The notes beneath the pieces are model-generated. The model did not search any database. It saw nothing but the letters and a program-made list of their open reading frames with translations, and was not told where the DNA came from. Made by a program: the position numbers and the translations under genes. DNA of 64,000 nucleotides from Sistotremastrum niveocremeum HHB9708 (taxonomy: Eukaryota; Basidiomycota; Agaricomycetes; Sistotremastrales; Sistotremastraceae): assembly GCA_001630475.1 (NCBI GenBank), contig KV419430.1:299841-363840 (forward strand). The letters run 5' to 3'. Below are positions 9,877 to 64,000 of this stretch, in pieces; position 1 is the first letter of the stretch; each line of letters starts with the position of its first letter.

Positions 9877-11080
9877 TCACAGCCAGACGAACGATGACCG
9901 TTGCTGAGCATTGGTGTCTGTACTTCTTGCTAACAAAGTGAGATTTGCTCCTCCCTGGCTTCGCTCGTATACCGCAACACCTCCACCAGTTAAACCAGCG
10001 GCAATAATATACTCATTATTGGGCCCACCGATCCCCATCCCTCTTATTTGATTGAGGCCGGTGAAAACTTGTGTGACCAACTGCAGCGGATTCGTCGAGA
10101 AAATGGCAATGGAATCCCCTCGCGGATCGGGATTTCCGTTGTTAAGGCGGTTGGAAGCGTAGATGTATTGTGTAGGGTATTGTGAGTTGGGATTTGGCAT
10201 CAAAAGCTCCCCGGCACCGTATTGGCTCGTGGTGGCGCCAGCAGGGGTGATTGGCAATGAAGAAACGATAGGAGCCGTCGTTGTCGTCGGTGAGCAAGGT
10301 ATACATTGCTGGGTTAAAGTGTTTGCGTCTTCATGTAGGACATACATCGTGGTCCCGGATATGGCTATACGGCGAGGTCCACTTCCCGAAGGTTGAGGAA
10401 TGTACCCATTGATGGCCCAGGTACCAGTAGAGTTACTCATTCTCCACACTTTGTCGGCGCCCTTGTTACAAGGTCATGAGCATCCGCGCTCTGGCCTAAA
10501 CAGATGAACGTACTAGATCGGCGATGAACATTTCCGGGTCGTAACGTGCAAGAAAGTGAGGATGTGATTGTCCCCCATTCGCGGTAAACGAAATCAAGGG
10601 AGGATTGGAGTTGGCAAAGTGAACGAGATCAGAGCTCAGAGGGAAAAATTCTGCATTTCCACTGTTATACTGCAGCCGGCTATAAGATTTTACTAATGCG
10701 TGAGCGAAAATGAAACTCACATTGAGAGCAGCAATTGTCTGTCCGTCGGGCAATGGGGTCGCGAACGCCGGTCCATTTCCTCCCGTGTAAACCGTCGAGA
10801 CTTGAGTCAGAGCACCTCCAGAACCGATGTTGAAGGTCAGCAGTTGTCCGTATGAATTCTCATTTGTAGCGCTATGAATTCCGCATCAGCCCTTGTCATT
10901 CGCAGAATTAAGGCAAGCTCACTAGAGGACATTGGGGTTGATCGGGCTCTGGGCGATCCATGATGGATTTGTGCCCGCTGGTGACGTGCCTTGAACAGTC
11001 AACGAAGGAGGCGAGCTTTGGAATAAGAAAGATGTAATGACAGATGTGTAGCCGCCAGCCAGAATAGTAAACGAGACCAT
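9877..11080 (-). CDS. Lactonase-type seven-bladed beta-propeller protein, copy A
   Basis: The exons are complement(9877..10461, 10514..10669, 10721..10871, 10923..11080), giving 349 aa. Motifs run in order: MVSFTILAGGYTSVITSFLF, NPSWIAQSPINPNVLYATNE, NGGQSHPHFLARYDP, SGSGPRRIAISG, YIYASNRLNNGNPDPRGDSI, and GLNQIRGMGIGGPNNEYIIA near the end. This is the pattern of the 6-phosphogluconolactonase/carboxy-muconate-cyclase-like propeller family (family knowledge). There is no signal peptide, so it is probably cytosolic. The substrate cannot be read from the sequence; in fungi such proteins hydrolyse or form lactones in sugar or aromatic catabolism. The next gene upstream is a tandem paralogue with the same intron positions. 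Confidence 0.88.
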
Positions 11081-11525: not shown

Positions 11526-12732
11526 TCAAGTCAGCCATATGAATGTGGATCGGTCTTGCGAGACTGCTTCGGTGTTACGCGCCAACAATTTCAGACTCGC
11601 CCCACCATCTATTCTCTCGAATACAGCGACGCCACCGTCAGTCAAGCCCGCCGCGATCAGGTATTCATTGTTCGGGCCGCCCAACTCCATGCCACGTATC
11701 TGGTCGAGTCCAGTGTACACTTGCGTTACGAACCGCAGAGGGTTAGTGGCAAATATAGCAACGGAATCGCCTCTTGGATCCGGGATGCCCGTATCTCGGT
11801 TAGATACGTACAGAAACTCTTGAGGGAAGAGTAGATTCGGCTTAGGGAAAAGAAGTTCGGCGGCATGGTAGGTCCCGTTGGTGGTGTTCACTCCTGGAGG
11901 AGTGGTCAACAGAGTTTTGATCGTCGGATCCGCTGTGGAGAATCGGGAAGCAGGAATGATTTGTTCCGATAGAGAGTTGAATAATTCGTGCAAGACGTAT
12001 ATGGTATTTCCCGAGATTGCCACCCGACGAGGTCCACTTCCAGATGGTTGAGGGATGTATCCGGTGACAAACCAGGTGCCATTCGTCTCTTGCGATAATC
12101 GCCAGATCTTATCGGCACCCTACCATGACGTCAGATGGGGAAAGAGGCACACGACAAAATACTTACAAGATCTGACACGAACACCTCCGAGTTATACTGG
12201 GTGAAGAAATGAGGATGCGAAAAGCCGTTGACAGGCGCTTGAAAGGTAATAGTCTGAGGCGATCCGAAATGCAACAAATCGCTGCTGAGGGGTACGAATC
12301 TGCCGTTTCCAGTGTTGTACTATTTTCTCAACGTCATTCTCCGTGATCTTGAGAAAAGATTCAACGCACATTTAGAATTAAGGCTTGCTTGCCGTCCGAC
12401 AGAGAGGCCGTAAAGGCCGGATCGTTCCCCAAAGACGGAATACTTGAAACTTCATGCACCGCTTGACTTTTGTCTATCGTAAAGGATAACAAGGATCCGA
12501 TGGTATTCTCATTAGTGCCACTTGATGAAATTAAGCAATGATCCTGATTCTTGATCAAAGGTGCAATAACTCACTAAAGCACACTTTTATTCAAGGGACT
12601 CAGTGACAGCCAGGACACATTGTTGCCAGCCGGATAGGTATCCACCACACTGAGTGAGGGAGGCGAGGTCTGGAATAACAGCCTGGTGATAAACGTGGTG
12701 TATCCACCGGCTAAGATGGTGAATTTGACCAT
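11526..12732 (-). CDS. Lactonase-type seven-bladed beta-propeller protein, copy B
   Basis: The exons are complement(11526..12119, 12167..12319, 12370..12520, 12575..12732), giving 351 aa. The four-exon plan equals that of the neighbouring copy; exons 1 and 2 have exactly the same lengths (158 and 151 nt). Key stretches are MVKFTILAGGYTTFITRLLF, NGFSHPHFFTQYNSEVFVSD, SGSGPRRVAISGNTIYVLHE, YVSNRDTGIPDPRGDSVAIF, and a C-terminal GLDQIRGMELGGPNNEYLIA. It belongs to the same propeller family as copy A and clearly arose by tandem duplication. Exon-level similarity is high in the blade cores and low in loops, so the two may differ in substrate. Confidence 0.88.
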
Positions 12733-16070: not shown

Positions 16071-18130
16071 TCTGATGGTATAGCAAGGATACAAGGGTGG
16101 TGTGGGGTTTCCGAGACTCCAATTGACCCTTTATGATGAGGCTGCGGAGATCCGGCGCGCCCTGAGAGGAATTGCTTATTTTTTCGGATTATTATCTGAA
16201 TGCATCCGCCAATGCGATCATTGATCCCGAAATACCAATCCATGCTCCCTGAGTCGTACACGTATCCCAATACCGATTGGATTCGTGCACCGCTGTCGGG
16301 GGTAGCTACCGTTCGCTCTATTTTCGCCCTGAACTCATCGCTCAGCAAAGTTGCGATTGCGCAAATGGAGTCACTTTCCCCGGATTTCCCAAATTGCCAT
16401 AGTAGTCAGCTGAGTCGATCAACCTCCTGAAAGTCGTATTCTTTCGGCTACCCCGTCGGTATCTCCGCATAGCATTGGCTTCTTACGACTACATACTCTC
16501 TCATAGTCAATCTGATGGTATCACTTGAATCCATTACTCGATTTGTACCTGTAGATCCACGCGACTTTACTGTAATCCTTGCGTATGGCTTCATTTTGGC
16601 TTCATTGCTCTGCTGTCAAGGTGGCGGACTTTCAAGAGTATAATGATTGATATTCGAGAACTTACACCAACTCTGACATCGATAGAGATTGCTAAGCAAC
16701 AAGAGATCGACTGAGACAAGACTCCCTGCTGCAAGACGCAACTTGACGATGATACGGAACGGAGTCGTAAACTCAATAGCGAGGTACATCGGTAAGACCG
16801 CCCGGAATACGATCTTCGAATTTAACCAGATGCTTCAGCTGCCCACTGTTGCCGCAATGGATCAGATCCATCTCATCAATGCAAGAGAGCAACCAAGAGA
16901 CCGAGTCTTCATGGGACCACTGGCAGTGATCGCATTGAATGAAATGTTGAACGTCGAGATATCATCGTCGAATGGTTTTTAGGGATAATATTCCCATCAA
17001 GTGAAATAGGGAGGGCCTAAGATGTCGCCATGTGTCGGTAAAACAGAGCAGTGTATGGAGTATTGGCTTGACTAAAACAGCGAGGGCGATAGAAGAGACC
17101 AGGAACACGACGGGCCTGCCAGTGAGTACTGTACTTACACGACCACGACATACTGCCGTTACGGCGTTACGTTTTTGAAAATACGACATACAAATACCAA
17201 AATATATTCAAATATTCGCAATCGATGATATATTGTGTTTCCGAGAGTTATGAGGTGTGTCGACACATGTGTTTGCGCAGGAAGGAGCTGAGAGTGTCGA
17301 AAATCGTGCATCTCCGTGGGCGCTCCGTGGGCGCTTAGCGTGTGAAATATGTCAAGGTCATGTAGGTACAGTAAATCCGCGACCTCGAGCGTTTGCGGGG
17401 GCGTGGACGGGGCTCTCTCGCCTCAACCAATCTTCGTGTGTGTATAGAAGCTGAAGCTGTTCTGATGACAGGCATCCTTAGATGTCCCACAATCGTACAA
17501 AGTGACTTCGCTCCAGCGCTGAATCAAATTTCTGAATCATTTCGAGGGAGTATAATCATAGAACTCACTCTCTGCACGCAGCTCGTATCTCAATTGCACG
17601 AACGTTTCTCCTCCAGCGCAAATTGGCATGCTCTTGGTACGACAGCGCACGAGCGAGCAGATCCTGCACAAGCTGAAGGACGATGACAGGTCAAGAGCAT
17701 TCTTCGTTGGTTCTCAAATAATATAATTCGCTCAGCTCCAATTTTGCGCAACTCTGAAGCACCGGAAATTTCTCCAACGCCGCGTTATTTTCAGGTCGTG
17801 AGCGTCGCTTCCAGCCTGCCAAAGTGGTCAGCCTGAGTACAATTTTGGTTTCCGTCCGAGTTCCGTGGTGATCATTGGCTGACGGCGCTTGTTTGCTCCT
17901 AACTTCTTCACCCATAGTCTTTCGGTCTTTCTCACCATTATTTCTAGACCTGTGCCATTCAAGTACAATGAGCCCTGGTTCTTTTCAGCTGGGGATAACG
18001 CTCGTCCCGTCGACGTTGATCCGTGGCCCGTTACACCTTGAACCCTACATTGACCTCGATCTTCGCAACAACACGCGTTGAAGGCTACCCAGCGACATAC
18101 AGATATAACTCTTGCTAGTTCAAGACTCAG
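16071..18130. other. Long intergenic region; possible membrane-protein relic on the minus strand
   Basis: This 2.06-kb stretch has no gene I can support. On the minus strand between about 16600 and 17190 hydrophobic, coding-like pieces occur (VFLVSSIALAVLVKPILHTL; FRIIVKLRLAAGSLVSVDLL), but they cannot be joined into one frame. They may be a decayed membrane-protein gene. The last few hundred bases before 18131 hold the promoter of adenylate-forming reductase 1. Confidence 0.3.
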
Positions 18131-21100
18131 ATGTCTTCATCTTTCATCCCTCCACAGAAAATTCGGGACCAGCTCGTGTCAGAATTGTTCATCCAGACAG
18201 CCATTCTCAATCCCGACCGCACGTTTGCTCACGTCATAGACGGGGATGTCGCACATCCTGTCGTAGAGAGTATAACATGGAGTCAGCTTCTCGCTCATGC
18301 CCATTCTATTTCAAAAGAACTGTCAAACTGGGTGCAACCACAGGAAAGCGGGCTTGCTCCGCGTACCCTTGGTCTATTGGCCAGGAATGGCTACAGCTAT
18401 GCAGTGCATCTTTTAGCAGTGTTGCTGAATGGATGGACGGTTAATATCGCCTTGAATAACGATATTCTCATTCACCAATTCTCTGGTAGGCGACGTCGAT
18501 CTCGATCAAGAACAGCCCTTCTGCTATCGATCATCTCCTACACACCTCAGGAGCAGAATACCTCCTCACCGACCAAGACTCTCGTCCTCTAACTGTGGGG
18601 TGCTCCTTCAAAATCCCCGTCCTCGAATTCCGCAACTTGTCAACTTTGCCTTTCCACGGCATGCCTTCTCCCAAGTCTGTCACTCCGGAGGCGCTGGACC
18701 AAGCGGTCCGGCAGACTGCTTTCTATTTTCATACTTCGGGGTCCACCGGACACCCGAAGGTCATCCCATGGGTATGTCGATTCTGAACCGTCTTCCCCCC
18801 CCCTTGATACGGACTGAGATTCTCTGCAGACCCATCAGTTTTTTGGTCAGATTGTGACATTATACTTACCAGATGTAGAGGGTTATCATGGTCACCCGAT
18901 TTATTGTCTAGCGCCAATATATCATGTAGGTATCAATCAGAGATGACTCCAAAACAGTGCTCAACCCGCTTATAGGCTATGGGGACGATATTTTCTTTAG
19001 CTTCTGCATTAATCGTTGGGAGCCCTTTGATTTTTGTCGAAACTCGGAAGCCTATAACCGGAGAAGCTTTGGTTCGGCATCTTCGTCCTTTTTCGGAAGT
19101 CATCGTTGTTGCTGTACCATCAATATTACAAGAAGTCGCAGAAGCCGGTGAAGCTGTGATCAAGGAATTTGCAAGTCGAGTGAAAGCGGTATTTGTCGGA
19201 GGTGCCGCTTTCGATGTTGCAGCGGGAGACTTATTGAGTGCATATGGAGTGGCCATTCAGACTGTCTACGGAATGTAAGTCCATTTCTGTGATTTGAGTT
19301 TCACGTCTGACAGTATCTCAGGACTGAGATCAATATGGCGGGTCGTCAAACAGTCCCAAAGTCTCCTCAAGGGAACGGAGAGTGGAGATACGTGCAGTGG
19401 AGGGATGGATATAAACCTCACCTTATTCCGATCGAAGGCTCGAACGCGAAAGAATTGATAATCGAGGTATTCCTTTGCGGCTCGGTTTCGAGATTTGACT
19501 TGCTGACAAGCTGTTAGCCAGCTGAAGACTCACCGGCAGTCATCGACCACGATAATTTGCGAGGATTCCGCACCAGGGATACATGGCTCGAGCATCCTAT
19601 CAGACCTGGATGGTGGGTTCATGCGGGTAGATTAGATGACATCACAGTGTTGAGCAATGGAGAGAAGACTAACAACAAGCAGCTTGGTGAGCTACCTGTT
19701 CCTTCTGCTGATAAATCATCTTATTCTTCTGAAGAAATAATTTTACTCCGGGACCGTCGTATACGAAACGTAGTTGTCTTCGGGGAAGGACGGCTGCAGA
19801 ACGGAATACTGGTCGATCCTGTCACGGATATTCAGGACCCGCAGTCATTTATTAATGACATCTGGCCGACAGTCGTGGCCATGAACCAAGAAGTTCCGTC
19901 GCATTCTCGTCTGGTTAGAGAACTCATTCTTGTCGCGGATCCTGATCGCCCGTTCGCCTTCACTGATAAGCGCACTGTCCGTGGGAAAACGACCTTGGCC
20001 CTCTACAAGAAAGAGATTGATGCAGCCTACAAGAATCTGGAAGGAAGTGAAAGCCCTGAGTGGGAAATTCCTAGGACTTTCGATGCTCAGAGCATTCAAA
20101 CATTTATTGCTACCGTCGTTCGAAGCGTTCTAGCTCGTGAGGTGAATGAGACGGAGGACCTCTTCGCCCAGGGTGAGCTCATCCTGCATCGTGTTACGAG
20201 CTTTATTGACATGTATCTTCTCGGATTAGGCATGGATTCCCTTCTTGCAGTCCGAATCAGATCCTCTCTTCTGCCTCTCATAAAAGCGTCACCGCAGCTA
20301 GCGTTAGACCTGCCCAGGAACGTTGTGTACACTTACCCAACAGTTTCTTCTTTAGCTGCTTTCCTCTCCGCCAAACTCGATCCCTCTTCTGAAGCCCCTG
20401 CTGTTAGCGAACACGACAAAGCCCGTGATCTCATCAAAAAATATTCCGAAGGCCTTAATCCACACTCCCCCGATGTCACACAGAACGTCAGGTCAGGATC
20501 CGTCGTGGCTGTTACCGGGACTACGGGCAGCGTTGGATCTTTCCTCGTGGATCGCTTGCTTCGGGATCCCGAAATTGACAAGATCTACTGCTTGAACAGA
20601 AAATCATCGAAGAAGACCACGGAACGCCAAACAGGTGCATTCCAGGACCGAGGCCTCGATCATTCTCTGCTCGAGACCATGCCAGACCGTCTGCGGTTCA
20701 TCGATGTTGATCTCTCACAGAGCAATCTCGGACTCTCCGAAGTAGACTACGACGAGGTATGTGTACCTGAATGCTTCTTCTCGTGATTTTCTCAAGGTTT
20801 ACGCAGCTTCGGAATAACATTACCCATCTTATCCACACAGCGTGGCATCTGAACTTCAACCTCTCTGTCGAAAGTTTTGAGAAGCCTCACATCGCCGGCG
20901 TACGCCATTTGATCGATCTCGTCCTCTCTTCTCCCCGACCGGTCTGCCCTCGCTTTGTTTTTCTGTCTTCAATATCGGCTGTCTCGGAATACAAAGAAGC
21001 TCCAGAAGTCCCGGAAGTGCCTCTGGACAATCCTTCTGTTGCAAAGATGGGCTATGGTCTGGCTAAATTCGTCGGCGAACGCATCATAGATAACGCTGTT

Positions 21101-21754
21101 CGTAGAGCCGGACTTAACGGTATTGTCGTCCGTGTAGGCCAAATATCGTAAGTCTTCAATTGGACTCGATTTCCTTTCACTCAACTAGGATCATTAATAT
21201 CACCTCAGCGGAAGCGCCTCCGCATCGGCAGCCTGGTCTAGAACCGAGCAATATCCAATGATGTTCATCTCAGGCATTGAACTTGGGATGTTTCCGAGTG
21301 ACCTTCCTGTAAGTCATCGAGTTTTGTTGTAGCCGTTTGATGTCTATTCTGATCGGTCTTGTAGGCTGCGCGTTGGATTCCAGTCGACGTGGCTGCCCGA
21401 GTAATTATTTCTCAAAGCTTTCACTCTGACGCTAGAGCCCTCGATTATTTCCATCTTGAGAATCCCGAAGCCACGCCATGGTCAGACGTCGCAGAGGTTG
21501 TGTCGGGGCACAATGGGAGAAATATACAGCTTGTTTCAATGAAGGAATGGCTCGCCGAACTCAAGCAGCGTTCCCAGGAGCCGGATTTCGACGCAGAGAA
21601 GATCCCAGCTTTCAGGCTACTAGGATTTTATGAGGAAGAGATCACGATGCCGATTCTTGGAGTTGGCCGCACGTTACAAATCAGTCCGGAGCTCAGGTTT
21701 GGGCCCATCGCACGAAGTCTAATCACAAAATATCTCGAGTATCTTCGGTTATGA
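18131..21754 (+). CDS. Adenylate-forming reductase 1 (NRPS-like, A-T-R)
   Basis: The exons are 18131..18439, 18490..18771, 18830..18925, 18976..19274, 19322..19466, 19518..19686, 19735..20172, 20230..20756, 20807..21147, 21209..21308 and 21365..21754 (1031 aa, phases close). The adenylation domain (about 1-540) has YFHTSGSTGHPKVIPW, VYGMTEIN and WVHAGRLDDITVLSNGEKTN. The thiolation domain carries its phosphopantetheine Ser in GMDSLLAVRIR (about 580). The reductase domain (about 665 on) has VAVTGTTGSVGSFLVDRLL for NADPH and the MGYGLAKFVGE Tyr-Lys pair. Family knowledge: such enzymes activate a carboxylic acid as its AMP ester, tether it as a thioester and release it reductively as aldehyde or alcohol. 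Several basidiomycete members act on aryl acids. There is no condensation domain. The substrate is not readable. A paralogue with the same exon plan lies at 47725-51337. Confidence 0.92.
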
Positions 21755-34896: not shown

Positions 34897-34996
34897 AGAC
34901 ATAATCATAATTAAATCATAGACATGTGCATAGGCATAGCGGCATCAATGCAGGCACGTACTGTACAGAACGAGGGCATTCAACAATAAAATAAAA

Positions 34997-35285
34997 GAGT
35001 AACAGACGAGAATCCCGACTTCCCTCACCTAGTGGTTAGCACTACCCCCACCATTCCAGGTAAGGCGTCACCCCGAAGGATGAGGTGCTCCAGTTCGGCG
35101 TTTGCAAGGAGAAGCCGCGACTCGTCCACCGGCAGACTATCTCACCGGGCCGGTCGTCGGCTATGATACCAGCACGCCCTTCCGGACGTTTTGACTGAGT
35201 TGAACCTGGGTCGCGACATCCAGTTACTCAGCCCTGTGGCTCATAGCGTTCTTCCAACCAAGCTACTTCATCTGACGTTAGTCTA
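34997..35285 (+). repeat. Left arm of a large inverted repeat
   Basis: This arm matches the reverse complement of 37243-37531 over about 290 bp at roughly 80 percent identity by eye. Shared blocks include GAGTAACAGACGAGAATC, GGCGTCACCCCGAAGGATGA and TTGACTGAGTTGAACCTGGG. Both arms can be translated as LTELNLGRDIQLLSPV followed by HSVLP in the same sense, which suggests the repeated unit was once protein-coding. Confidence 0.75.
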
Positions 35286-37242
35286 TATGTGTGTACCATT
35301 CCTATAAGCATTTGTTTTTCCCCTTTGTTGCCCCCATTGTGAGATGCGGTGCACTCCGGTTTCCGAAATATGCTTTCGCACAGAGCAAGTGCTTTCAAAT
35401 TACTTATTCAGGTGGTCCTCTTTCATGTCTAGCATACACAGGAATGTCTAGCCTCTCGCTATCTGACCCTCTTTTGAGCCTCAGATTCGTATTGTGGTCT
35501 CGCATATACTGTTGCCATTGAGGGACGCAAGACGTTGATGAGAACGTTGTCGGTGGCCAAGGATGTTGCCCCAGTCAGTATCTGCAATTCGCCAACTTGT
35601 ACTGGGGTCTTGCTAAAGATCCGATAGCACTCGTTGTATACTATCCCCTGTCAAATCGAGGGAAACTGAGTGAAAATGGTCCTATATTAGAGTCTCAGGC
35701 TCATCGAATCCGCCCCGCTTGACTAACTTGCGCCATCATCCCCTGGACAACACTATATTCATCTGGAGAGCAAAGGCTCTGGACTTGACCAATTTGCCAT
35801 CCACAGCCATGACATCAATCACGGCCATCAGCAGAGAAAATTCTGGTGGCATGGAAGCGAAATGTCAGTAAAATCCTTCAATTCCATCGGTTCAATCCCG
35901 CTGATCATTCAACAGGCATATTCTACGAAATAACCTCTGGAAGGATCAAGCAGTCATTCGCTCAGGCTGTTGGGATGGATGCTATGAGAGAATGTTGAGA
36001 GCAGGGCGCAGTCGTCGTCCACCGCACGAGCACACTATTGGTCGCGATGAACGGCGGTCGTGCCACCCCAGGTGAGTCACAATTTCCATCACCTTTGAGC
36101 TGCTTGTAACACTCCTGTGCTCTCTAGGCTAGTCACATTTGGTGGGCCCCCAAAGAGTACACCGACACATTCGGTCCGCTTGTTATCATTGATTTTCCAT
36201 TCATAACGTTTGACACGATTTCGTGTAGGTTCATCTTCAGATCTCCTCACCACTGTTCTCTGACTCTGCTCTCTGGATTGAGCTCTGCTACGCCTTAGTC
36301 GCATGCGAAGACGGGCTCTCTTGGCCAAGGTCCGTAATGCCAGTGAAAGTCCGCGAGAGCGATCTTCAGCGGTCAGAAGAATCAGAGCGACTGATGCTAC
36401 GATCTCAAAACCTATCTGTCAAATGCTTTCTTGCAATATCTCGGGCCTCCGATCTTCAAGCGTGTACAGGCCTTCGTTCACATGGTTCATTTATCTGACG
36501 ATCAACAACTTTGCCTCGACGCAACCCTGTTCCAGGGATACATATGACTTCCCTCTTGCATAGGCCACTTTCGTCGTCATGATAAACACGCCACTTTTGT
36601 CAGATCGTTGGCGCATTTCTTGCGGCTCTTATGTCTGGTATAGTCTTTTACTTCTTGGCTTTCCGCTGTTCATGAGATCAATGTTCACAGATTGCTCGCA
36701 TACAATTTGGTGGCAGCTTGCTCTGTCCAATGTCTCCAGCTTTTCTTGGTCGCGTCAATGGGAAGAAAATTGGAATCCGACTTAGAAGAGAGAAATGATC
36801 ATTCCCATCAGGAAATGGGGTCCCGAAACCAAAGTCGATCCATAGATGCAAAGGACCGTGAAATATCCCATAGCCTTGCTCTCGATGTGATCTCGGTCTT
36901 GCCATATCCGTGCAGGCTTTCCTTCCAAGCTCTCCCCACACATCTGGTCATCAATTGCACTTCCAGGACGCACCTTTTAGCTTTGAACAAATACCGCCGC
37001 ATATTCTGATTACAACATCTATCTGACGACATGACTGCTCTCTCCTGCGCTATTGGCGGACTCGACAGCACACACACTCGGGATCGGACAATGCTGATGG
37101 AACTGCTTTACTCTGGTAGCAGATCTCGCACCGTCCCGAATATAGATGCGTTCGTCGGAATCCGGAGCTTCAAAGCGCACTGCCTTGCGAGAAGTACTGT
37201 CAAGGGGATAAAGAAGTGCTTATTGTCTGTCGCTACCCTATA
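35286..37242. other. Spacer between the inverted-repeat arms
   Basis: This spacer is 1.96 kb. I found no transposase, reverse transcriptase or other recognisable protein, and open frames are under 125 codons. It is either a degraded mobile element or host sequence trapped between two oppositely oriented insertions. Confidence 0.4.
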
Positions 37243-37531
37243 TACTAACGGTGGGCGAGGTAGCTTAGGCGGAAGAACGCTGTGTATCACAGGGCTGAGT
37301 AACTGGATGTCGCGACCCAGGTTCAACTCAGTCAAGCGTCCATGGGGACGTGCTGGTACATGGCTGACAACCGCCCTAAGTGAGACCGTCTAGCGGTGGA
37401 CGAGTCACGGTTTCTCCTTGAACACGCCAAACTAGGACCATCTCATCCTTCGGGGTGACGCCCGATCCATGGGGAAAGGGGTAGTGGACCTACTAGGTGA
37501 GGGAAGACGCGATTCTCGTCTGTTACTCATT
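37243..37531 (-). repeat. Right arm of a large inverted repeat
   Basis: This arm is the reverse-complement copy of 34997-35285. It differs by scattered substitutions and short indels, so the duplication is not recent. Confidence 0.75.
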
Positions 37532-37845
37532 TTGTTCCAACTTATTATTATTTCCCCAAAACTCAGGGACACTTGTAGAGCTTTGGGTTCTGCTCTGCCG
37601 TTCTCTTGCAGATTACCGTCATTCTATTGCTTGATGCACTCACGCGTACGGTTAGCAGCAATCGGATGTCGGCGCTTCTCGTAGACGGTAGACTCATCTG
37701 CTCAGGACTTACCGCTGGTGATCTGTGGGACAGGATGGTCGCTTCTGGTGCGATGATGGATGTTGGGCAAATGCTTTCTCTCGGACAGATACCGCGGGCT
37801 ACTACTAAGGAGATAGGAGAAGTTTTGGGGCATGTAATACTAGTA

Positions 37846-37925
37846 TTAGACATAATCATAGACGTAGACATAATCATAAACATAATCATAGGCATAGACA
37901 TAGACATAAGCATAGGCATAGCGGC
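37846..37925 (+). repeat. A/T-rich hexamer-like tandem array
   Basis: This is a run of degenerate units built from AGACATA, ATCATA and GGCATA, for example AGACATAATCATAGACGTAG and CATAGGCATAGACATAGACA. It ends in CATAGGCATAGCGGCATCAA, which also occurs in the same orientation at 34929-34948 beside a shorter version of the array. It is a microsatellite-like expansion of a repeat boundary. Confidence 0.65.
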
Positions 37926-37940
37926 ATCAACGCAGGCAGA

Positions 37941-38631
37941 GCTAAATTCATGACCGCGACCATGATCCTCGAGGTGACCATGGGCATGACCACGCTTCGC
38001 ATAACCGAGACTGCGCCGACCCTGAAGGCCTGAAGCGTCTGCGGAACCGTTCATCGCCCGACTCCAACACCCCTCGACGGAAAGCGATCACACATTGCGT
38101 GCGAGAGGGGGGAGACCTGAATGAAAGTGGTTAGCTGATGTAGACGAGAATAATAAGAACGACTTACGACGAACGGCGAGCCTCGTGCAGCGACCTCTCT
38201 GGGACGCCTTCCCCAACCACACATGTGGCCAGGAAGCAATGCCACTGCGAAGAGCGTCAGAATGTTATGAGATAGATAGAGAATAGACTCGACGTACCAT
38301 AGCACCGCGGCATCCTGCCCCTCACTCCTCCAGAACGACTTACCCATCACACATGTGACAGGAGCGAATTGACCCTGCAGACGAGAGACGGGGTTAGCAC
38401 GAGCGAGACAGACGAGACGATGAGATGGACTTACCATGGCCACGCGTCATTCTTGCTGCCTTGCAGGCATCAGAGTGAGGTGAGAGGAGGGAGCAAAAGC
38501 TATATTGAAACTCCGCCGAAATGGCCGTTGTTTTATAGCTCTGGGACAGAGGAGTTTCATGAATTGTCGCCAGAGATACAGCAGTAGAATACATCTACAG
38601 CAGACTATGTTCGAGACGGAAAACAGAGGTT
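37941..38631. other. Region with a possible tiny spliced gene on the minus strand
   Basis: Starting at an ATG at 38450 and reading leftward, three GT-AG introns of usual size can be drawn. They leave short exons that include SIRSCHMCDGG and ASWPHVWLGK, ending after about 50 codons. Alternative frames across the same exons are also open, for example VALLPGHMCGWGRRPREVAA, so the reading is not secure. A further minus-strand frame at 37945-38054 is His/Gly-rich (AKRGHAHGHLEDHGRGHEF). I do not call a gene. Confidence 0.3.
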
Positions 38632-38846
38632 GGAAACACAGCGAGAGCTCAGCGTCGGAGTTGGGACGAAGCTCAAAGGGAAGCGCCGGAGAAGCACACC
38701 GGCTACTCTAGGCGGTTGATAGCCGGTGCCGATCCCGTTGCCAATTGTCCTTAGCGCCCGTCGCCGAAGCTCGGCTTGATTCATTTTAGTTCCGCTTCTC
38801 CGGCGCTTCCCTTTGAGCTTCGACGCTGAGCTTTCGCTGCGTTTCC
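38632..38846. mobile_element. Long hairpin, MITE-like fold-back element
   Basis: The left arm 38632-38695 and right arm 38794-38846 are near-perfect reverse complements. A 28-bp core is perfect: GCTCAAAGGGAAGCGCCGGA on the left pairs with TCCGGCGCTTCCCTTTGAGC on the right, with flanking bases also matched. The left arm carries a 12-bp insertion (GGAGTTGGGACG region). A second small stem (CACCGGCTA at 38697 and TAGCCGGTG at 38720) lies in the loop. Size, fold-back form and lack of coding suggest a non-autonomous element. Confidence 0.7.
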
Positions 38847-41753: not shown

Positions 41754-42112
41754 TCAGTGCTTTCTTCGGTGTCGATGAGTGTTTGTGTGTCTGTGATTGT
41801 CTGGAGCTCCTTGTCCGATGTCACCCCCTCGACCAGCGAGTCCATGTCCTCTGACATGTCCGGCATCCCCTGTATCTAAGCCGATTTCGTGGGTACATTG
41901 CGCAAGGTACTGGCATTCATAGCACTCACCAATCTGGACCCTGGCACTCGTGCTTTGAAGTGCATCCATCTGTTCCGCAGATAGATTGAAATCTCCACCA
42001 CGTCCGCCTTCTCCTCCAGCGTCTCCTCCGTTTCCGGTTGCTAGATAACGCGTATGAGGAGGCGAATGAATTCAACGATACGGCACATACTGAAGTATGA
42101 GTGATGAGGCAT
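41754..42112 (-). CDS. Small Gly/His-rich protein, paralogue 1 of a divergent pair
   Basis: The exons are complement(41754..41875, 41930..42040, 42091..42112), giving 84 aa with phases closed. The protein starts MPHHSYFTTGNGG. It carries GRGGDFNLSAEQMDALQS, then VQIDTGDAGHVRGHGL, AGRGGDIGQGAP, and a basic His-rich tail (NHRHTNTHRHRRKH). The RGGD motif occurs twice, once in each half. It has no signal peptide, membrane segment or Cys. I do not recognise the family. The gene 0.95 kb away on the opposite strand has the same intron positions and phases and the same motif order, so both are real genes. The His tail could bind metal ions or nucleic acid, but nothing here proves it. Confidence 0.75.
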
Positions 42113-43062
42113 CCTAACACTTTGGGATCGCTGTCGCGAGATGATGCACAGCGATGCTCGCGAGCTATTTCGCTCTTCTGATGTATTGACGTCCAGTCAA
42201 TGACTGGATCTATGGAAAATCCCGACTACGATTCTAGTCTGCTCTAGGTTTCATGACCGTGAAACAGGTACATTAAAAGCGATCATGTATGCAAACGTCT
42301 TCGAATGTCGCCACTCATGCCCTCCCGAAAAATACCTCATCGCTGATCTCTAATCGATCAACAAAGTAGACGCCGCTGATACAGTCGAAGTCAATGAGAC
42401 ATGCTCCGAGATTTACAGTCATGAACAAATTACGCCCTACGCCCGTCCAGAGAAGACAACTCGATCTGGGAGATTGAGCTGGATCTCCCTCATGTCAGGG
42501 GTTATGAATTGACGGTGCCGGGATTCCCCAAGCTGAGGCCCCTGAGCTCCTCAGCAACTTTCCAGACCGTGTGCAGTCTAGAGTTTGGAGAGCAAAGTAC
42601 CAGCTCATTAGTTATTCATGTGTGCCTTTGGCAGGAGTTACACGAACCAAACGCCTTAGAGTTCCACGTGGCAGATCGAGAGAGCGATCTTTGGACTCTA
42701 TGGCAATGAACAGATAATCTTCTTCGCGCCGATCAACGGCCGGCAGCAGGTCTCATCTTGAGCTCGATTGAAATGAAGCTCAAGATTCCAAGCGCACAGT
42801 CAACAAAGTGGCAAACCTTGAGTCTTCCAATTTAATAATGGCCATCGAAGGAACCTCAAATCTATCGAACCTCAAATCTATCACATCCATCGATATCATA
42901 TCTGCTCACCGGCTTTTCATTTTGGTCGATGGCATCCAGCGATCCAAGAAATCGTCCAAACAAGTCTTCGCATGCAAAATTTCTATTTAAAAGCAGGGTT
43001 GAGACCAGTATATAAGATCACAGAACAGGCCGTCCCTCCATTACATCGATCATCCTACGAAC
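42113..43062. promoter_or_regulatory. Shared bidirectional intergenic region of the Gly/His-rich gene pair
   Basis: This 950-bp region separates the two divergent starts. The right end has TATTTAAAA (42984-42992) and GTATATAAG (43008-43016), the latter 47 bp before the right-hand ATG, a plausible TATA box. A short direct repeat, GAACCTCAAATCTATC, occurs twice near 42851-42882. No gene is seen inside. Confidence 0.45.
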
Positions 43063-43421
43063 ATGTCTTCACACTCATACAGTTTGTTCTCTCTTTACCT
43101 TCGTGCTATGTACCAGCTTATGTATCAATCTAGAGACCGGTAAAGGAGGTAGCGCTGGCTCCGGCATCTCCGGACGTGGTGGCGACTTCAACCTTACCCC
43201 GGAACAAATTCAGGCCCTTCAAAGCGGCAAAGCTACCGTGAATATTGGTCAGTATTTTTTGGTGTCGAGATGTCTTTGAATGTGTGTTGAGCCTTCATTC
43301 AGATGCTGCCGGTGGTGGTGATGTGCACGGACGTGGCATTGCAGAGCGTGGTGGTGATATCGGTGCGGGAGCCCCCGCCACTCATAGGCACGTCGGAAAG
43401 CACCATCACCACAAGCACTGA
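43063..43421 (+). CDS. Small Gly/His-rich protein, paralogue 2 of a divergent pair
   Basis: The exons are 43063..43081, 43134..43247 and 43303..43421, giving 83 aa with phases closed. It starts MSSHSYKTGKGG. GRGGDFNLTPEQIQALQS, VNIDAAGGGDVHGRGI, ERGGDIGAGAP and a His tail (THRHVGKHHHHKH) follow. Motif order, exon lengths (19/114/119 nt against 22/111/122) and both intron phases match the divergent partner at 41754-42112. Gly is very abundant, there is no Cys, and the only hydrophobic patch is the short FNLTPEQIQALQ helix. The C-terminal run of four His plus further His is unusual for a natural protein. The function is unknown. Confidence 0.78.
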
Positions 43422-46495: not shown

Positions 46496-47724
46496 GTGGG
46501 AGTCCAGGGGGCATGCAGTCATCCAGAAAGATATTTCGCCGGTCATTGAAAGGGTGACTGTGGTGAGAGATGGGGAAGCAGAGACAAAGCGACTTGAGTT
46601 TGTCTTATCAATAAATGTTTGCTTGTTTTGTTCCAAAGTCGATGACGCGGCGCCCAGATAAACGGCAATCTATCGGTAATACTCTGTTGTACCATTCAAT
46701 AGGTCGAGCGAAAGTATGCTACCAGCTTATTGTTCTCATCGATGCATGCCAGGACCCCCATGTGCATCGTGCCTGCGCATGAATCGCAAAGGGTCGATCC
46801 GGCGGATCGCTGGATTAAACTTGGATTTTAAAGTACTGCGTGACTAGCTGATTTCTGAGTTAGTACATCACCTCGGCCATACAGTTCATCGTGTTATCGA
46901 AGGCCTGCGACCTGCGCTCCAGACTAGAGCATCAACAGCAGATGACGGATGGGAGCAAAATCTGTTCCCGAGCCGGCTTCCGAATTCCGCCAATCGCTAA
47001 CTCCGGAAAGGGAGCCGGCGCTTATACGACTTCTACTCCGATGCTTCTTCGCTGTTCTCACCAACAATCCTGGTGTGCAGTCAATCGCAATGACCCTGTC
47101 GGTCAATTGCTCTCAGTGTGCTCCCGTATAGATTCGGTGGTCAAAACCTTGCTGGACTCATCTTAAATTATCTCGAATATGTCTGGGGCTTCAGGACCTT
47201 CAGTTTTCTGTCACAGGTCGACCTGCTCCTGAATAAATATGAGCTGTTGACCGCCACGATATGCTCTGATGGGAATGAGATCCGGCCAATGCAAAAAAAT
47301 ATAGTCCAACTGGACCAGTATTCCCGATTGGGACGTGGTCATCCGTCTCATCGTGATAAATTTTGTTCGGTTGGTCGTGCCACATCCGGATTCCACGACG
47401 TTGTTCTGACATATACTGCATTTGACAGATGCCGGACATTGCTTCCTATGTAGATTATATCTACGCTAATATCCTAATAATGGCTCTCTTTGCCGAAAGC
47501 CTTGGTGGAGTTAGGAAGGTGGGAGCACGATCGAAATCCTGTTTATTCGACACCCGCGAGTACTCGGGACTCCAGCGAAGAACTCTACTCCGGGACTTGC
47601 GGACTTCACTCAACAAGTCTCAGTCGTCCTCATCCTCTCTAAAGAATGGCGTCCGACTCGCGCTTGGAAAACTATAAAAGGTCTGCAGGTGTCGACGTAG
47701 ATCCCCATCATACTTTCCACTGCG
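46496..47724. other. Intergenic, promoter side of reductase 2
   Basis: This 1.23-kb stretch has no supported gene. The last bases carry the TATA element of the reductase. Frames of up to 110 codons show no pattern. Confidence 0.4.
47673..47680 (+). promoter_or_regulatory. TATA box of adenylate-forming reductase 2
   Basis: TATAAAAG lies 45 bp before the ATG at 47725, in an otherwise mixed-composition context. The position suits a fungal TATA promoter with a short leader. Confidence 0.5.
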
Positions 47725-50700
47725 ATGTCTTCCATCTTCAAAGCTCCTGCTCAAGTCCGCGACCAGCTCATGTCTGAGCTCTTCATCCAAGCCGGCACTA
47801 TCAATCTCGATCGTGTTTTCGCCCAAATTATAGAGGGCGACGTCGATCACCCTACTGTCGAAAAAGTCAGCTGGGAGCAGCTTCTCACACACGCTCGTGC
47901 TATCGCCCTAGAACTTTCAAAAGAGATTCAACCACGAGACCTTGGCCTCCCTCCTCGTAGCGTCGCGATCTTGGCGAGAAACGGATACAGTTATGTCCCC
48001 CATCTCATAGCTGTGTTAATGAACGGATGGACGGTACGTGTTTTGGTGGTTATAACGCACGCTCATGATGTCAGCTCATTGGTATTACTTCGGCAGGCCA
48101 TGTTGGTATCCACCAAAAACAGTCCTGCTGCAATAGATCATCTCCTGGCCACCTCCGCGTCTGAATCGCTCCTAATCGATCAAGCTTCTCGATCATTAAT
48201 CCAAAATTGTAACTTCAGCATCCCCATCTTAGAGTTTTTCGACATCGCTTGTTTGCCTTCCCACGGTCTGCCATCTCCCAAAGCAATTGCTTCGGAGGTC
48301 CTAGAGAAAGAGATCCTCCTGCCTGCCATCTATATCCATACATCGGGATCCACTGGACACCCTAAGATTATTCCATGGGTAAGTGACTTTCTGGTCTATG
48401 ACGATTACGCAGTGGGCTCACACGTCGCAGAGCCATCAATTCTTCTCTCAAACGGTCTCCTCCTACCTTCCTGAGATCGAGGGTTTCCGCGACCATCCAC
48501 TTTATTGTCTTGCCCCAATATGCCATGTACGTTCCCTCTGAGCCGCGCTGGACCGTTCTGATATTGTATCTAGGCTATGGGTGCGATATTCTACCTAGCT
48601 TCAGCTCCTATTGTTGGAAGTCCCATTATTTTCGCCAAGTCTCGCAAGCCTATCACTGGCGACGCTCTTGTCCGTCACCTCCGTTCTTTCTCAGATGTAA
48701 TCCTGGCCGCCATTCCGTCCATTCTACAAGAGGTCGCGGAAGCCGGAGAAGGTGCGATCAAGGAGCTTGCCAAACGAGTCACTGTTGCATTCTTTGGGGG
48801 AGCCGCTTTGGATCCTACGGCAGGCGATCTCCTGAGTGCGCATGGTGTTCCCATCAAAACCGCCTATGGAATGTGAGTGCATTCCCTCTTTGACGCGTTT
48901 CGTGACTAAAGTCACCTCGTAGGACGGAAATTAATATTGGAAGCCGATTGACCGTGCCAAAGGGCCCTTTGAAGAACGGCGAATGGAAATACTTGCAATG
49001 GAGAGACGGATTCAAAATGCATCTGCTTCCGGTGGAAGGATTAGACGCTAGGGAATTGGTTGTTGAAGTACGTTGACAACACTATCGTCAATAAACTTAC
49101 CCTGACAGATACTCAGGGAGCAGAAGATTCTCCCGCTATCATTGACAGCGAGAGTCCCAGAGGATTCCGTACAAAGGATACTTGGGTTGAACATCCGGAG
49201 CGCCCTGGTTGGTGGCGCCACGCCGGACGGATGGACGATATCACAGTTCTGAGTAACGGCGAGAAGACGAACAACAAACAATTAGGTGAGTTCTTTGTTT
49301 ATCATTGCATATTCTTTACTTAATGTTGCACAGAAACCATCCTACTTAGAGACCCGCGCATTCAGCACGTGGTCGTATTTGGCAAAGGACGAGCGCAAAA
49401 CGGCATCGTGGTCGAGCCCGCACCAGGAACACAAGGTCCCAGAGCATTCCTCGATGAGATCTGGCCGACAATCGTCGCCATGAACAAAGAAGTGCCCATG
49501 CATTCTCGGCTGATCCGAGAGCTTGTCCTCGTCGCAAATCCTGGCCGTCCTTTCGCCCTCACGGATAAGGGTACTGTCCGTGCCAAAATCACCCTTGCAC
49601 TATACGAAAAGGAGATCGAAGCTGCTTATACCAACTTGGAAGAAAGCGCGAACTCGAAGTGGGAGCTACCGGCCGCATTTGATGAAGGAAGCGTCCAGAA
49701 CTTCCTCTCTAATGTGATTGGAGATATTCTCGCTTGTGAAGTGAATGAATCAGACGACCTATTCGCTCAAGGTTAGTGGGAAGTTGCCAGATGAAGCTGC
49801 CTCATGCTTATCTCCCATTTATAGGCATGGATTCACTTCTGGCGGTTCGAGTGCGATCTGCTCTGCTCCCTCTAGTGAAGGCGTCACCAATGCCGTCACT
49901 AACCCTCCCCCGAAATATCATCTATACCTATCCCACAATTCGCTCCCTAGCGACATTCCTCTCCGCCAATTTGGACCCATCGTCCGAGGCTCAGACGATA
50001 AGCGAACACGATAAAGTATTCAGAACCGTCAAAAAGTACTCCCAAGGCTTCGTCCCTCGCTCTCCTCGCGACAATGCACGCAAATTCGAACCTGGATCCG
50101 TTGTGGCTGTTACCGGAACAACAGGCAGTGTCGGGTCATTCCTAGTTGCTCAGTTGCTTGAGAACCCAGACATTCGCATGGTATATTGCTTGAACCGGAA
50201 ATCGTCTAAAGACACTGCAGAACGACAAAAAGAAGGGTTCAAAGACCGAGGACTTGATCTCGCTCACTTCGAGGACATGTCCGGTCGCCTTCGGTTCCTC
50301 GATGTCGACCTCTCAAAATCTGACCTGGGACTCGCTCGAGCGGAGTACGAGGATGTATGTACTCGCAAAATGCTTTGTCGAACACTGATCTAACAGAACG
50401 TCCTCAGCTCCGCGATAATATTACCCACCTCATCCATTCAGCATGGCAGCTCAACTTCAACATGGTACTAGAAAGTTTCGAGAAAACGCACGTTGCTGGC
50501 GTGCGCCACTTGATTGACCTCGTCCTCTCTTCTCCTCGCCCTGTCTGCCCTCGCTTCGTCTTCCTCTCCTCGATTTCGTCCGTGTCGGAATATAGCAGGG
50601 AATCGGAGGTCCCGGAAGCTTCCTTTAGCGATCCATCGATCACAAAGATGGGATATGGACTTTCTAAATTTGTTGGCGAGCGTATCATTGACAATGCAGT

Positions 50701-51337
50701 TGAGAAAGCTGGACTGAATGGCACTATCATTCGTATCGGGCAAATATCGTGAGTTCCCGAATATCCTTGATCCCAGCAGCCGCTGACGTTATATTTAGTG
50801 GAGGTGTATCTGGCTCGTCAGCTTGGACCAAGACCGAGCAATACCCGATCATGTTTATGTCAAGTGTAGAGATAGGAATCGTTCCTAATGATCTTCCAGT
50901 ACGTTTTTACCAGTTTGCTAGTGTAATTTCGTCTGATCATGCGACAGCCTGTTCGATGGATTCCAGCGGACGTAACTGCTCGCGTGGTTCTATCGCAAAC
51001 CTTCCATCCCGATGCGAAACCACTGGATTACTTCCATCTGGAGAATCCTGACGTAACGCCATGGACAGACATTGCAGAAGTTGTGGCCACTCACAACGGC
51101 CGAAATCTTCAGCTGGTCTCTATGGAAGAATGGCTGGCTGAAATCAAAAGACGTTCTCAAGAGCCGGGATTCAACGCGGACAAAGTCCCTGCTGTCCGGC
51201 TTCTTGGCTTCTACGAGACTGAGGTCACGATGCCCGTGCTTGGCGTTGAGCATGCTTTGGAAGTTGCGCCTGAACTCAAGTTCGGGCCTATTCCTAGGTC
51301 TTTGATCACCAAATATCTGGAATATCTTCATCTTTGA
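47725..51337 (+). CDS. Adenylate-forming reductase 2 (NRPS-like, A-T-R)
   Basis: The exons are 47725..48033, 48097..48378, 48431..48526, 48574..48872, 48923..49067, 49117..49285, 49334..49771, 49825..50354, 50408..50748, 50799..50898 and 50948..51337 (1032 aa, phases close). Ten of the eleven exons have exactly the same length as in reductase 1; exon 8 is one codon longer. Adenylation motifs are YIHTSGSTGHPKIIPW, AYGMTEIN and WWRHAGRMDDITVLSNGEKT. The carrier Ser is in GMDSLLAVRVRS. The reductase motifs are VAVTGTTGSVGSFLVAQLL and MGYGLSKFVGERI. It should activate a carboxylic acid, load it on the phosphopantetheine arm and release it by NADPH reduction. The substrate is unknown. Residues around the A-domain core differ in several places from copy 1, so specificity may differ. 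An F-box-like gene and a CmcJ-like oxidoreductase follow downstream. Confidence 0.92.
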
Positions 51338-60564: not shown

Positions 60565-60856
60565 TGTGCGAAATATAGCTCAGTGGTTGTGTACAACACT
60601 AGATATATTGAGTAATGCTACCTGTGCGAAATATAGCTATACAGATCATCAGCTAAGACATGAAGATATGCAAAACGAATACTGACCTCAGTGGTTGTGT
60701 ACAACACTGAGGTTCAGTCTAAACTCCGATAAACTACCTATACAGTCGATTGCCATGGTTGAGACTCCGCTCGACCAAGTGGCATAGCGCAGCGAAGTCC
60801 CGAGGCTCCTGCTAACTCCCCCTGCAACCTCAGGGAATGGATCCGGAAATTCAACA
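60565..60856 (-). repeat. 3' LTR of the copia retrotransposon
   Basis: On the minus strand the LTR begins TGTTGAATTTCCGG right after the polypurine tract GAGGGGGAG and plausibly ends GCTATATTTCGCACA, giving TG...CA ends and about 292 bp. It contains two copies of TGTTGTACACAACCACTGAG and of CTATATTTCGCACA, so it has an internal duplication. The left boundary is inferred from the CA end only. Confidence 0.6.
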
Positions 60857-63733
60857 CTCCCCCTCGAGATCATGAATCCTGAGGTTATCCAGGTGGGATT
60901 CAAAGAGAGGTCGAGCTAGTGCCTTGGTAAATATGTCTGCGACGTTGTCTTTTGAGGGAATATAATTGATAGATATGTGTTTGGCGTCGAGTTGTTCACG
61001 GACGAAGTGGTGTCGAATATCAATATGTTTGGTCCGTCCATAACTGGTAGTTCCTTTAGCAAATGCAATGGTCCCTTGATTATCGATGTAAACCGGTGTG
61101 GGACTGAGTTTCCCAAGTCCAAGTTCTTCCAAATTCAATTCTTTGAGGAATTCTCTCATCCAGAGTGCCTGCTGCAGTGCATGTGATGCAGCCATATATT
61201 CTGCTTCAAGCGTCGACAATGCAACGGTTTGCTGCAGCTTTGAACTCCAGCTGACTAAACTCCCAAAGCAGTATGCCGCATAGCCGGAAGTGGAACGTCG
61301 AGTGTCACGATCTTCTCCCCAGTCGGCATCGGAATATATTGCAAGTGGCTCATTAGAATCAGTCCCTCCAAGACGAATTCCGTGGTTCCTGGTCCCTTTC
61401 AGATATCGTAAGACACGTTTTACCGCATTCCAATGTCCGGGGCCGGGATTAGAACAGAACCTGGCCAATTTCTGAGCCGCATGGGCGATATCCGGCCGAG
61501 TGGCATGCACAGCATAGTTGATCGCTCCTATGGCCTCACGATAAGGTACCTTCTGCATTTCAGCAATTGTCTTGTGATCACTGAGTGCTGGGGACATGGA
61601 TGAATCCAAGACAACAGAAGGGTCAAGGGGAGTGGCCACCGGTTTTACTTCAAGACCGTCAAGGTTAAATCGTCGAAGAAGAGTATCAATGTACGCTCTC
61701 TGAGTCAGGATGCAGGATCCATCTGGCTGATTGACGGCTTCGATGCCGAGTATCCAATGTAGTTCTCCACCGAAAACCATTTTTAGCCTCTCGCCAAGTT
61801 CTCGCTCCAGTTCATCGGCTTCAGGATCGGAACTGGAAGTCATAGCCAGGTCGTCGACTGCCATATTGACGATGCTGCAGCCTGTATCGGTGCGTCGAGC
61901 ATATACAGCATGGTCCACATGAATACGCTCGAAACCTAGGTCTTTGTAGATTCCGTTTATGAATAAGTACCAAGCTCGTCCGGCTTGCTTGAGGCCATAT
62001 AATGGTGCCTGCAAAATGCACACATCTCCGTGGTTTCCTTCTATAAAACCTTCCGGCTGCCTGAGGTCGATCTGCTCCTCTAAAACTCCATTCAGGTATG
62101 CTGATTTGACGTCTGCCTGCCGAATGACCCATCCAAGTTTCTTTCCCAGGCTAATGACCATTCTCAACGATTCAAATCGCCCAACAGGGGCAAAGACATC
62201 GAAGTAAGATTCGCCAAATCGTTGCGAAAAGCCCTGGGCCACAAGTCTGGCTTTATACTTCAGGATTGCACCCTTTTTATCGTGTTTGATATGGAACACC
62301 CATTTCGAGCCAACGAGTTGAACTCCAGGACGTCGTGGACCAATATGCCAAGTGCCGTATTCCTGCAAGGTTTCGTGTTCTGCCTTCATAGCAGCAATCC
62401 AGTGCTCTTTATCTTCACTGTTGATGGCCTCCTGATATGTTTTTGGCTCCATTCCCGACGGCAATACTTTGATTTCATCGACTCTGAATGCGTGCTCCTC
62501 ATCGTCATTCATATATCCAGCACCTGGAGGTACGTCTGACAGTTCTGAATCGTTGTCTGAACCTGATTCTGACGCCTGAATTGGCTGAGAAACTGGAGCC
62601 CCTTCCAGTGGCACAAAATGTTCAGCCTCAAGCCCTTCATTTCTCCTGGATTTTCGAGAGGGTGGCCCATAGTCCTTGCGCCGTCTGGGTGCTCTAGGCA
62701 CTGGTTCAGGTTCGTTTGTCTGATTTTCTTCGTCTGCAACAGCTCCTGGTCCGTCGCCGGTACCTTGGTTCTCGGCAGCTCCATCCACCGGTTCCTCTCT
62801 TTCATCCGAATTTTCGAGCCTTGGAGGATTAGCAATCTCGGGAGGTAGATGATCCGATACATGTTCGTCAACCCCGTAGTCGTCATCGGCATCAGGTACG
62901 CTATCGTCCGATGGATGGTCGAAATCTGATTCCAGGAGTTTAACTCCCCCTGCAGACGAAGGAAGGGGCACTTCGACGACTTTGTGCAAGTTTTCATCGA
63001 ATATGACATGAGGCGACTTATAGTATCGCTGAGATTTGAGATCGAAACACCGGTATGCTTTAGAATGCTCGTAGTAACCAAGGAATATGCATTCCACTGA
63101 CTTGGGTTCCAGCTTCTTTCGTAATTCGTCAGGTACGTGGACCCAGCATCGTACACCGAATTCTCGTAGGTGTGCGATGTCAGGTTTTGAACCAGTCCAG
63201 AGCTCATACGGAGTCCTCCCGTTCAAGGCACGTGATGGAATACGATTGCGAAGGTATGTAGCTGTATTGACAGCCTCTGCCCAGAACGATAGATGGACAT
63301 TGCGTGCGTAGAGCATGGCACGAACTCGTTCCATAATTGTACGGTTCCCACGCTCTGCCACTCCATTTTGCTCTGGAGTGTAAGGAGCAGTTGTTTCGTG
63401 AATAATCCCTTGTGAGGTAAGCCAATCTTCGAGTTCTTGGTTCATGAATTCGCCGCCATTGTCACTGCGAAATCGTTTCCATTTTGCATTGACTTCGTTC
63501 TCAGCTATAGCCTTGAAATCTTTCAAGATCTGAGCGATGCCGGTCTTGTCACGGAGAAGGAACACCCAGAACATTCGGGTGTAGTCATCGGTGAGTCCTA
63601 GGAAATATCTATTTCCGCCACGAGAGGGAATGCTAAATGGACCACATAGATCGGCATGAACTCGTTCAAGTGGAGCCTTAGCACGATTTTTGGAAGGAGG
63701 AATATGGAGGCCCAATCTGGTTTTTATACGCAC
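60851..63733 (-). mobile_element. Ty1/copia retrotransposon pol: integrase, reverse transcriptase, RNase H (5'-truncated)
   Basis: A 960-codon uninterrupted frame. The integrase core shows D,D-35-E residues in VHADLCGPF, FRSDNGGEFM and TPEQNGVAERGNRTI. A Gly/Glu/Pro-rich linker follows, then copia reverse transcriptase: WVFHIKHDKKGAILKYKARL, APLYGLKQAGRAWY and the catalytic AVDDLAM. RNase H has IYSDADWGEDRDTRRSTSGY and LSTLEAEYMAASHA with a late VYIDNQGTIAFA. The order integrase-RT marks copia. The zinc finger (HHCC), protease and gag expected upstream are absent; recognisable sequence stops at about 63730, so the copy is 5'-truncated or interrupted there. The stop TGA overlaps the first bases of the LTR. 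No frameshift suggests a fairly young insertion. Confidence 0.93.
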
Positions 63734-64000
63734 CAGTCAAAGTGCTCCGCAACATGGTGAAAATTGCCTTATTTGGGCAAGGTTTCTGACAAATCTGGGG
63801 AGTTTGGACCAATTTTGGACGCCAAGGCACACTGTGGCGTTGGCGCAGAAATTGCCCTGGTACACGCGGACACAAGTGCAAATTTTTGAGTTTTCAGCGC
63901 CACTCTTGAAATTTTGCTGATTTGCGCCACTAACTTGGTTTTTTTCTCAGCGCACGCCAATCACTCATTTTTACAAACACACGCCAAGGTCTGGCAGTTT
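63734..64000. other. Sequence abutting the truncated end of the retrotransposon
   Basis: This 267-bp stretch does not continue the copia polyprotein. It is rich in recurring CGCCA/TGGCG words (ACGCCAAGGCACAC, GTGGCGTTGGCG, GCGCCACTAAC, CACGCCAATCAC, CACGC CAAGGTC), which look like another degenerate repeat, perhaps a second element inserted into the first. Confidence 0.4.

Follow-up and report, generated by a model that had tools for sequence, protein, structure and literature searches.

The window, which is the whole stretch of DNA analysed here (64,000 nucleotides), forms the final 64 kb of contig C37 (363,840 bp) in a genome of 34.7 Mb and 111 contigs. We detected two small divergently transcribed genes in it, gene A on the minus strand (42112-41754, product of 84 aa) and gene B on the plus strand (43063-43421, product of 83 aa), each with three exons. 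The coordinates agree with an earlier sequence-only reading, which had described an 84-aa and an 83-aa gene with 950 bp between their starts. The splice sites of A, B and a third copy, gene C, were placed by eye from the sequence and the agreement of the three copies, and then checked by a script. The introns of A (50 and 54 nt) and B (52 and 55 nt) are all GT..AG and phase 1, and they lie at homologous places, as that reading had stated. The features, in window positions and with their basis, are:

41754..41875, minus strand: gene A exon 3 (Gly module 2 with RGGDIG, cationic His/Arg tail, stop); splice-site reading, repeat test
41930..42040, minus strand: gene A exon 2 (Gly module 1 and FNLSAEQMDALQ helix segment); splice-site reading, repeat test, purifying selection
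42091..42112, minus strand: gene A exon 1 (MPHHSYF, phase 1 end); splice-site reading
42113..43062, no strand: upstream region common to A and B, 950 bp; splice-site reading
43063..43081, plus strand: gene B exon 1 (MSSHSY, phase 1 end); splice-site reading
43134..43247, plus strand: gene B exon 2 (Gly module 1 and FNLTPEQIQALQS helix segment); splice-site reading, repeat test, selection, model
43303..43421, plus strand: gene B exon 3 (Gly module 2 with RGGDIG, His/Lys tail, stop); splice-site reading, repeat test

Intron 2 of gene A (41876-41929, minus strand, 54 nt) is without an in-frame stop and, if retained, would add GECYECQYLAQCTHEIGL with three Cys to the product. Intron 2 is 55 nt long in B and 56 nt in C, so this feature is peculiar to A.

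Gene C was first found by a search of the same genome with B, which gave a match at C37:264690-264815 (minus strand). The gene (C37:264892-264511, minus strand, 86 aa) is located outside the window, 77 kb from A and B. It has three exons, and its two introns (65 and 56 nt) are phase 1 and homologous in position to those of A and B; the exon plan and phases are identical in all three genes. No further loci were detected genome-wide with three protein queries at E up to 10; these locus counts are lower bounds, and two of the queries carried small errors where exons 1 and 2 meet. A fourth copy was also absent from 3521 ORFs in 110.8 kb of C37 when these were scanned with HMMs of the full-length protein and of the single exons 2 and 3, the best match outside A, B and C having an E of 0.49. 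On the flanks of gene C, we observed a frame at L006 211-1833 (plus strand), by eye glyoxal-oxidase-like, and a P-loop frame with GKGGVGKST at L006 2039-3154 (minus strand), by eye presumably of the Mrp/NUBPL kind.

The likeness of the A and B proteins exceeds that of composition-preserving shuffles by far (z = 24.5, 2000 shuffles), and low complexity therefore does not explain it; the same comparison gave z = 16.6 for B/C and z = 13.5 for A/C. Nei-Gojobori counts over the whole alignment gave dN/dS of 0.34/1.61 = 0.21 for A-B and 0.50/2.19 = 0.23 for B-C, while dS was saturated for A-C. The pN/pS ratio, calculated on the three pairs for the whole alignment and the core, was 0.41-0.51 in all six comparisons, and 0 of 500 neutral simulations was as low in each. 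Substitution between the copies, proposed earlier as a check on the genes, is thus purifying and far from neutral (0/500 simulations as constrained). In five of the six intron comparisons the likeness was no better than in shuffles, the one above them being intron 2 of B-C (7/300 shuffles as high).

Constrained exons beside introns that are scarcely alike indicate that selection keeps the reading frames, that the introns have drifted and that the duplications are old. A, B and C are almost certainly real genes, and they are anciently duplicated members of one selection-maintained small-protein family. The earlier statement that A and B are real, functional paralogues is supported by the same data. 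At the DNA level, the inverted likeness of A and B (minimum 18 nt) falls within their first two exons and extends just a few bases into the introns, as would be expected for an old inverted duplication.

The proteins have a common plan, which opens with a short head. Exon 2 then provides a Gly-rich module with FNL at its end and, after it, a predicted short helix, and exon 3 a copy of the module and a cationic tail. The glycine content is 21.4% in A, 22.9% in B and 25.6% in C, and module 1 is followed by FNL-[TS]-[PA]-EQ-[IM]-x-AL throughout the family. The motif order recognized previously (HSY, GRGGDFNL, EQxxALQS, RGGDIGxGAP and a His-rich tail with a final KH) is present in both A and B, and the composition check found zero Cys, in accordance with the absence of Cys reported for these proteins. 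By eye, none of A, B and C has a signal peptide or a membrane segment. The tail past module 2 has a net charge of +4 in A, +3 in B and +5 in C and contains 5, 7 and 2 His, respectively, and the overall charge of the A protein is balanced (9 K+R vs 9 D+E, pI 7.15). An AlphaFold model of B exon 2, a low-confidence model of a 37-residue fragment with B and A as the only alignment rows, contains one helix at residues 22-30 (PEQIQALQS) with the remainder as coil (mean pLDDT 66, pTM 0.28).

Gene C keeps the glycine spacing, FNLTPEQIxAL and the cationic tail, and is without the RGGD motifs and the His tail. RGGD occurs in both modules of A and of B, while C has DGGA and DGGQ at these places; His is found 9 times each in A and B and twice in the 86 aa of C. 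Since C lacks RGGD and the His run, the family traits are the glycine spacing, FNL-EQ-AL and the positive tail, and the RGGD motifs and histidines, previously noted as common features of the pair, belong to A and B only. The His-rich segment is retained in two of the three members.

The two modules of each protein resemble each other. When exons 2 and 3 of a gene were aligned locally, the score beat shuffles with P of 0.001 for A and 0.002 for B, and 0/3000 for C. With joint columns, 0 of 3000 column shuffles was as good; on the first 24 columns alone, the Gly-rich ones, 2 of 3000 were. Profile-profile comparison (HHalign) gave a weaker signal, with a probability of 25% and E of 0.00077 for a single comparison over 15 columns. 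By whole-exon scores, A and C each match their own partner exon best, and for exon 2 of B the score is 42 against its own exon 3 but 47 against that of A and 50 against that of C. Exon 2 of B thus prefers a foreign exon 3, and matching of modules within a gene is not general.

Codon usage and the upstream region were analyzed for hints of expression. The CAI of gene B (0.57) was above all 2000 draws of a low-expression model built from three open stretches of POL2 (1969 codons), and only 0.2% of 2000 draws of the high-expression model were as low. The high set is small, with 710 codons in 7 pieces that come from RPL24 and from 5 of 12 loci for EF-1alpha and histones, and it includes two near-identical histone H3 copies; the CAI of RPL24 itself (0.63) is circular because RPL24 belongs to this set. 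Genes A (0.405) and C (0.388) resemble the low model and POL2 itself (0.40-0.45). With B falling under nearly all high-model draws and A and C without codon bias, there is at most a hint of abundance, and it concerns B alone.

The 950-bp intergenic region has TATATAAGA upstream of B, and the longest word common to its A-side and B-side halves (475 bp each) is 10 nt. Nine promoter motifs were compared with 300 Markov simulations each for A/B and for C. STRE, CCAAT, heat-shock, metal and CRE-like elements at A/B were near or under expectation. Above expectation at A/B were ATCGAT (7/300 and 10/300 simulations as high in two runs), CGATC (16/300), CACGTG (35/300) and TATAWA (67/300), none of which was prominent at C in its own 300 simulations. 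No stress or metal element was prominent at both A/B and C. The window contains no Rfam family over the gathering score and no tRNA.

Past the 3' end of gene A there is a ribosomal L24e gene, and about 4.3 kb separate the end of gene B from a reductase-like gene (adenylation domain just under the Pfam cut-off, NAD_binding_4); no clear functional link of the neighbouring genes to A and B is evident. The contig shows a local expansion of NRPS-like reductases, four stretches of about 3.6 kb that are 63-69% alike in long DNA alignments and span 278.7-351.2 kb of C37. They were located by DNA likeness:

window 18130-21746, no strand: reductase stretch
window 47716-51337, no strand: reductase stretch
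C37 278682-282302, no strand: reductase stretch
C37 ~292939-296591, no strand: reductase stretch

Three frames of the two window copies matched AMP-binding and PP-binding (both just under the cut-off), AMP-binding_C_3 and NAD_binding_4 in Pfam. Elsewhere in the window, we observed a fold-back inverted-repeat element (34993-37532; arms of 41-97 nt, 83-93% complementary) and beside it a 1-kb piece (37831-38845) with 83-85% likeness to a palindrome of 2.2 kb at C37 290640-292853. A long copia-type retroelement frame (RVT_2, rve; 60851-63736, minus strand) is located near the contig end. An open frame at 9877-10473 (minus strand) has a Pfam match to the 7-bladed Lactonase family, and the neighbouring frame at 11526-12119 (minus strand) is alike to it by eye.

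The absence of a described family, suggested by the sequence-only reading, holds among Pfam and NCBIfam (all three proteins), PDB (gene B) and viral and prokaryotic contigs (alignment A1). With the three proteins as queries and E up to 10, Pfam listed three matches, all of them under the cut-off. NCBIfam, a prokaryotic library, gave no match over the cut-off for the three proteins, with three Obg models listed for one member (best E 0.097), and the four PDB matches of the gene B protein had E of 0.75 or worse. The pattern of alignment A1 selected 270 stretches in viral contigs, none of them confirmed, and 554 in prokaryotic contigs, one of which was confirmed. This match, in a Phycisphaeraceae bacterium MAG contig (L024, 4254-5240), has 45% identity over query residues 7-42 and an E of 1e-7 relative to the candidate stretches alone. 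An open frame of 328 residues there carries in its tail FNLTPEQIQALQ, 12 consecutive residues identical to the gene B helix segment. We rejected it as a relative, the likeness being mainly that one 12-residue string and the frame having no Gly-rich module, and judge it a probable convergence singled out by the search pattern. The string RGGDFNL was absent from the literature searched, and among the matches listed none was judged to be a related protein, some of them being general Gly/His and antifungal peptides.

We tentatively propose that A, B and C are small and flexible, with two modules for weak docking, one short helix and a cationic tail that serves as an anchor, a role that we consider possible but short of probable. 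Such proteins would be mostly disordered, cytosolic or nuclear, and adaptor-like. The conserved helix would dock to a partner protein, the pair of Gly modules would present a bivalent surface of weak contacts, and the tail, cationic through His/Arg/Lys in A and B and through Lys/Arg in C, could bind a polyanion, for instance RNA, polyphosphate or the surface of a membrane. Specialisation among the paralogues may lie in the tail and the module motif, RGGD in A and B vs DGGA/Q in C. This proposal is consistent with the exon plan common to all three genes, the low pN/pS, the internal repeat, the cationic tails of all three proteins, the single helix with coil around it in the model of B exon 2, and the codon usage of B over the low model, as expected of an abundant protein. 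On the other side are the balanced overall charge of A, the lack of codon bias in A and C, the HHalign repeat probability of 25% and the low confidence of a model built on 37 residues and two sequences. It is very unlikely that the two Gly modules within a protein recognise one another or share one repeated target. On this idea the module motif would be a specificity code set twice in each protein, with A and B mutually compatible and C insulated, in a tiny self-pairing system of two modules built by exon duplication. One event, gene conversion or a common bias, would produce such a pattern as well, and at the whole-exon level only A and C fit their own partner; we slightly lowered our estimate for this idea because exon 2 of B scores higher with exon 3 of A and of C.

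As for the role in binding metal or nucleic acid suggested earlier, A and B do carry two RGGDs each, but they have no RGG box, and the His tail is missing in C. The chelation of Zn, Ni or Cu by the His tail of cytosolic buffer proteins would fit the 9 His in each of A and B and the end of B in THRHVGKHHHHKH, but C, with 2 His and a Lys/Arg tail, shows that this is not a family trait, Cys is absent, and metal-response-like heptamers are close to expectation (1 vs 0.77 at A/B, 0 vs 0.56 at C). We regard metal buffering as unlikely for the family and possible for A and B alone. An RGG-type RNA-binding function, for which the cationic tail and the two RGG and three RG that A and B each contain could be cited, is improbable: the RGG of A and B stand at residues 21 and 60, and C has none. 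The definition of di-RGG is RGG-X0-4-RGG, with a gap of 0-4 residues (PMC9957100), and the spacing in A and B is far outside it.

Protection against desiccation or osmotic stress in the manner of hydrophilins would agree with the small size, the Gly content of 21-26%, the GRAVY of -1.15 in A and the mostly coil model of B exon 2. We consider it a doubtful explanation, somewhat less so than an RGG function: the hydrophilicity index, for which we take the sign-changed GRAVY, is over 1.0 in only one of the three (1.15 in A vs 0.74 in B and 0.38 in C), STRE-like sites are close to expectation (2 vs 0.98 at A/B, 1 vs 0.88 at C), and no KGG match was over the cut-off. The glycine content of all three proteins exceeds the 6% that, with an index over 1.0, is given for hydrophilins in an excerpt of PMC11277543. 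Least probable of all is that the genes encode precursor peptides of a ribosomal natural product tied to the NRPS-like reductases. A/B and C do share about 87 kb of the contig with the four reductase-like stretches, but the linkage may be mere local duplication and the stretch nearest to C is about 14 kb away. By eye the proteins are without a signal peptide and without repeated Kex2-type cores, and Pfam assigns the window copies as adenylation plus NAD_binding_4, domains that are not known as RiPP tailoring enzymes.

Small fungal protein families of unknown function are common and seldom studied, and the general surprise of another one is therefore limited. The genes are a clear example of a three-exon family that selection maintains and that is small, easy to overlook and without an accepted match in the libraries searched. 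The three natural variants, RGGD with a His tail twice and DGG with a Lys/Arg tail once, could be used for asking about the roles of module and tail.

Compared with known systems, the family is like hydrophilins in its small size and a Gly content far above 6%, and unlike them in that the index is over 1 only in A. Gly/Arg-rich stretches and a cationic tail recall RGG/RG (GAR) proteins; unlike these, A and B have single RGGs 39 residues apart, and C is without them. GRGGD followed by a hydrophobic residue is found in Obg proteins and resembles A and B. The Obg N-terminal glycine-rich fold (PF01018) was a weak Pfam match of A alone of the three (E 0.28; 11.2 vs 27 bits), and with the NCBIfam Obg models (TIGR02729; E 0.097, one of three members) this does not place the family in Obg, from which A, B and C also differ in having 83-86 aa and no GTPase domain. 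The unit of the KGG / Con-10 / GsiB stress repeat (PF10685) resembles GG-x-F-xxx-PE, but A, B and C were unlisted for this model at E up to 10 with the HMMER filters on; its two matches in the genome were on other contigs, both under the cut-off. A and B are also like the Shepherin-type peptides, which are plant antimicrobial peptides, in being Gly- and His-rich (PMC10698721).
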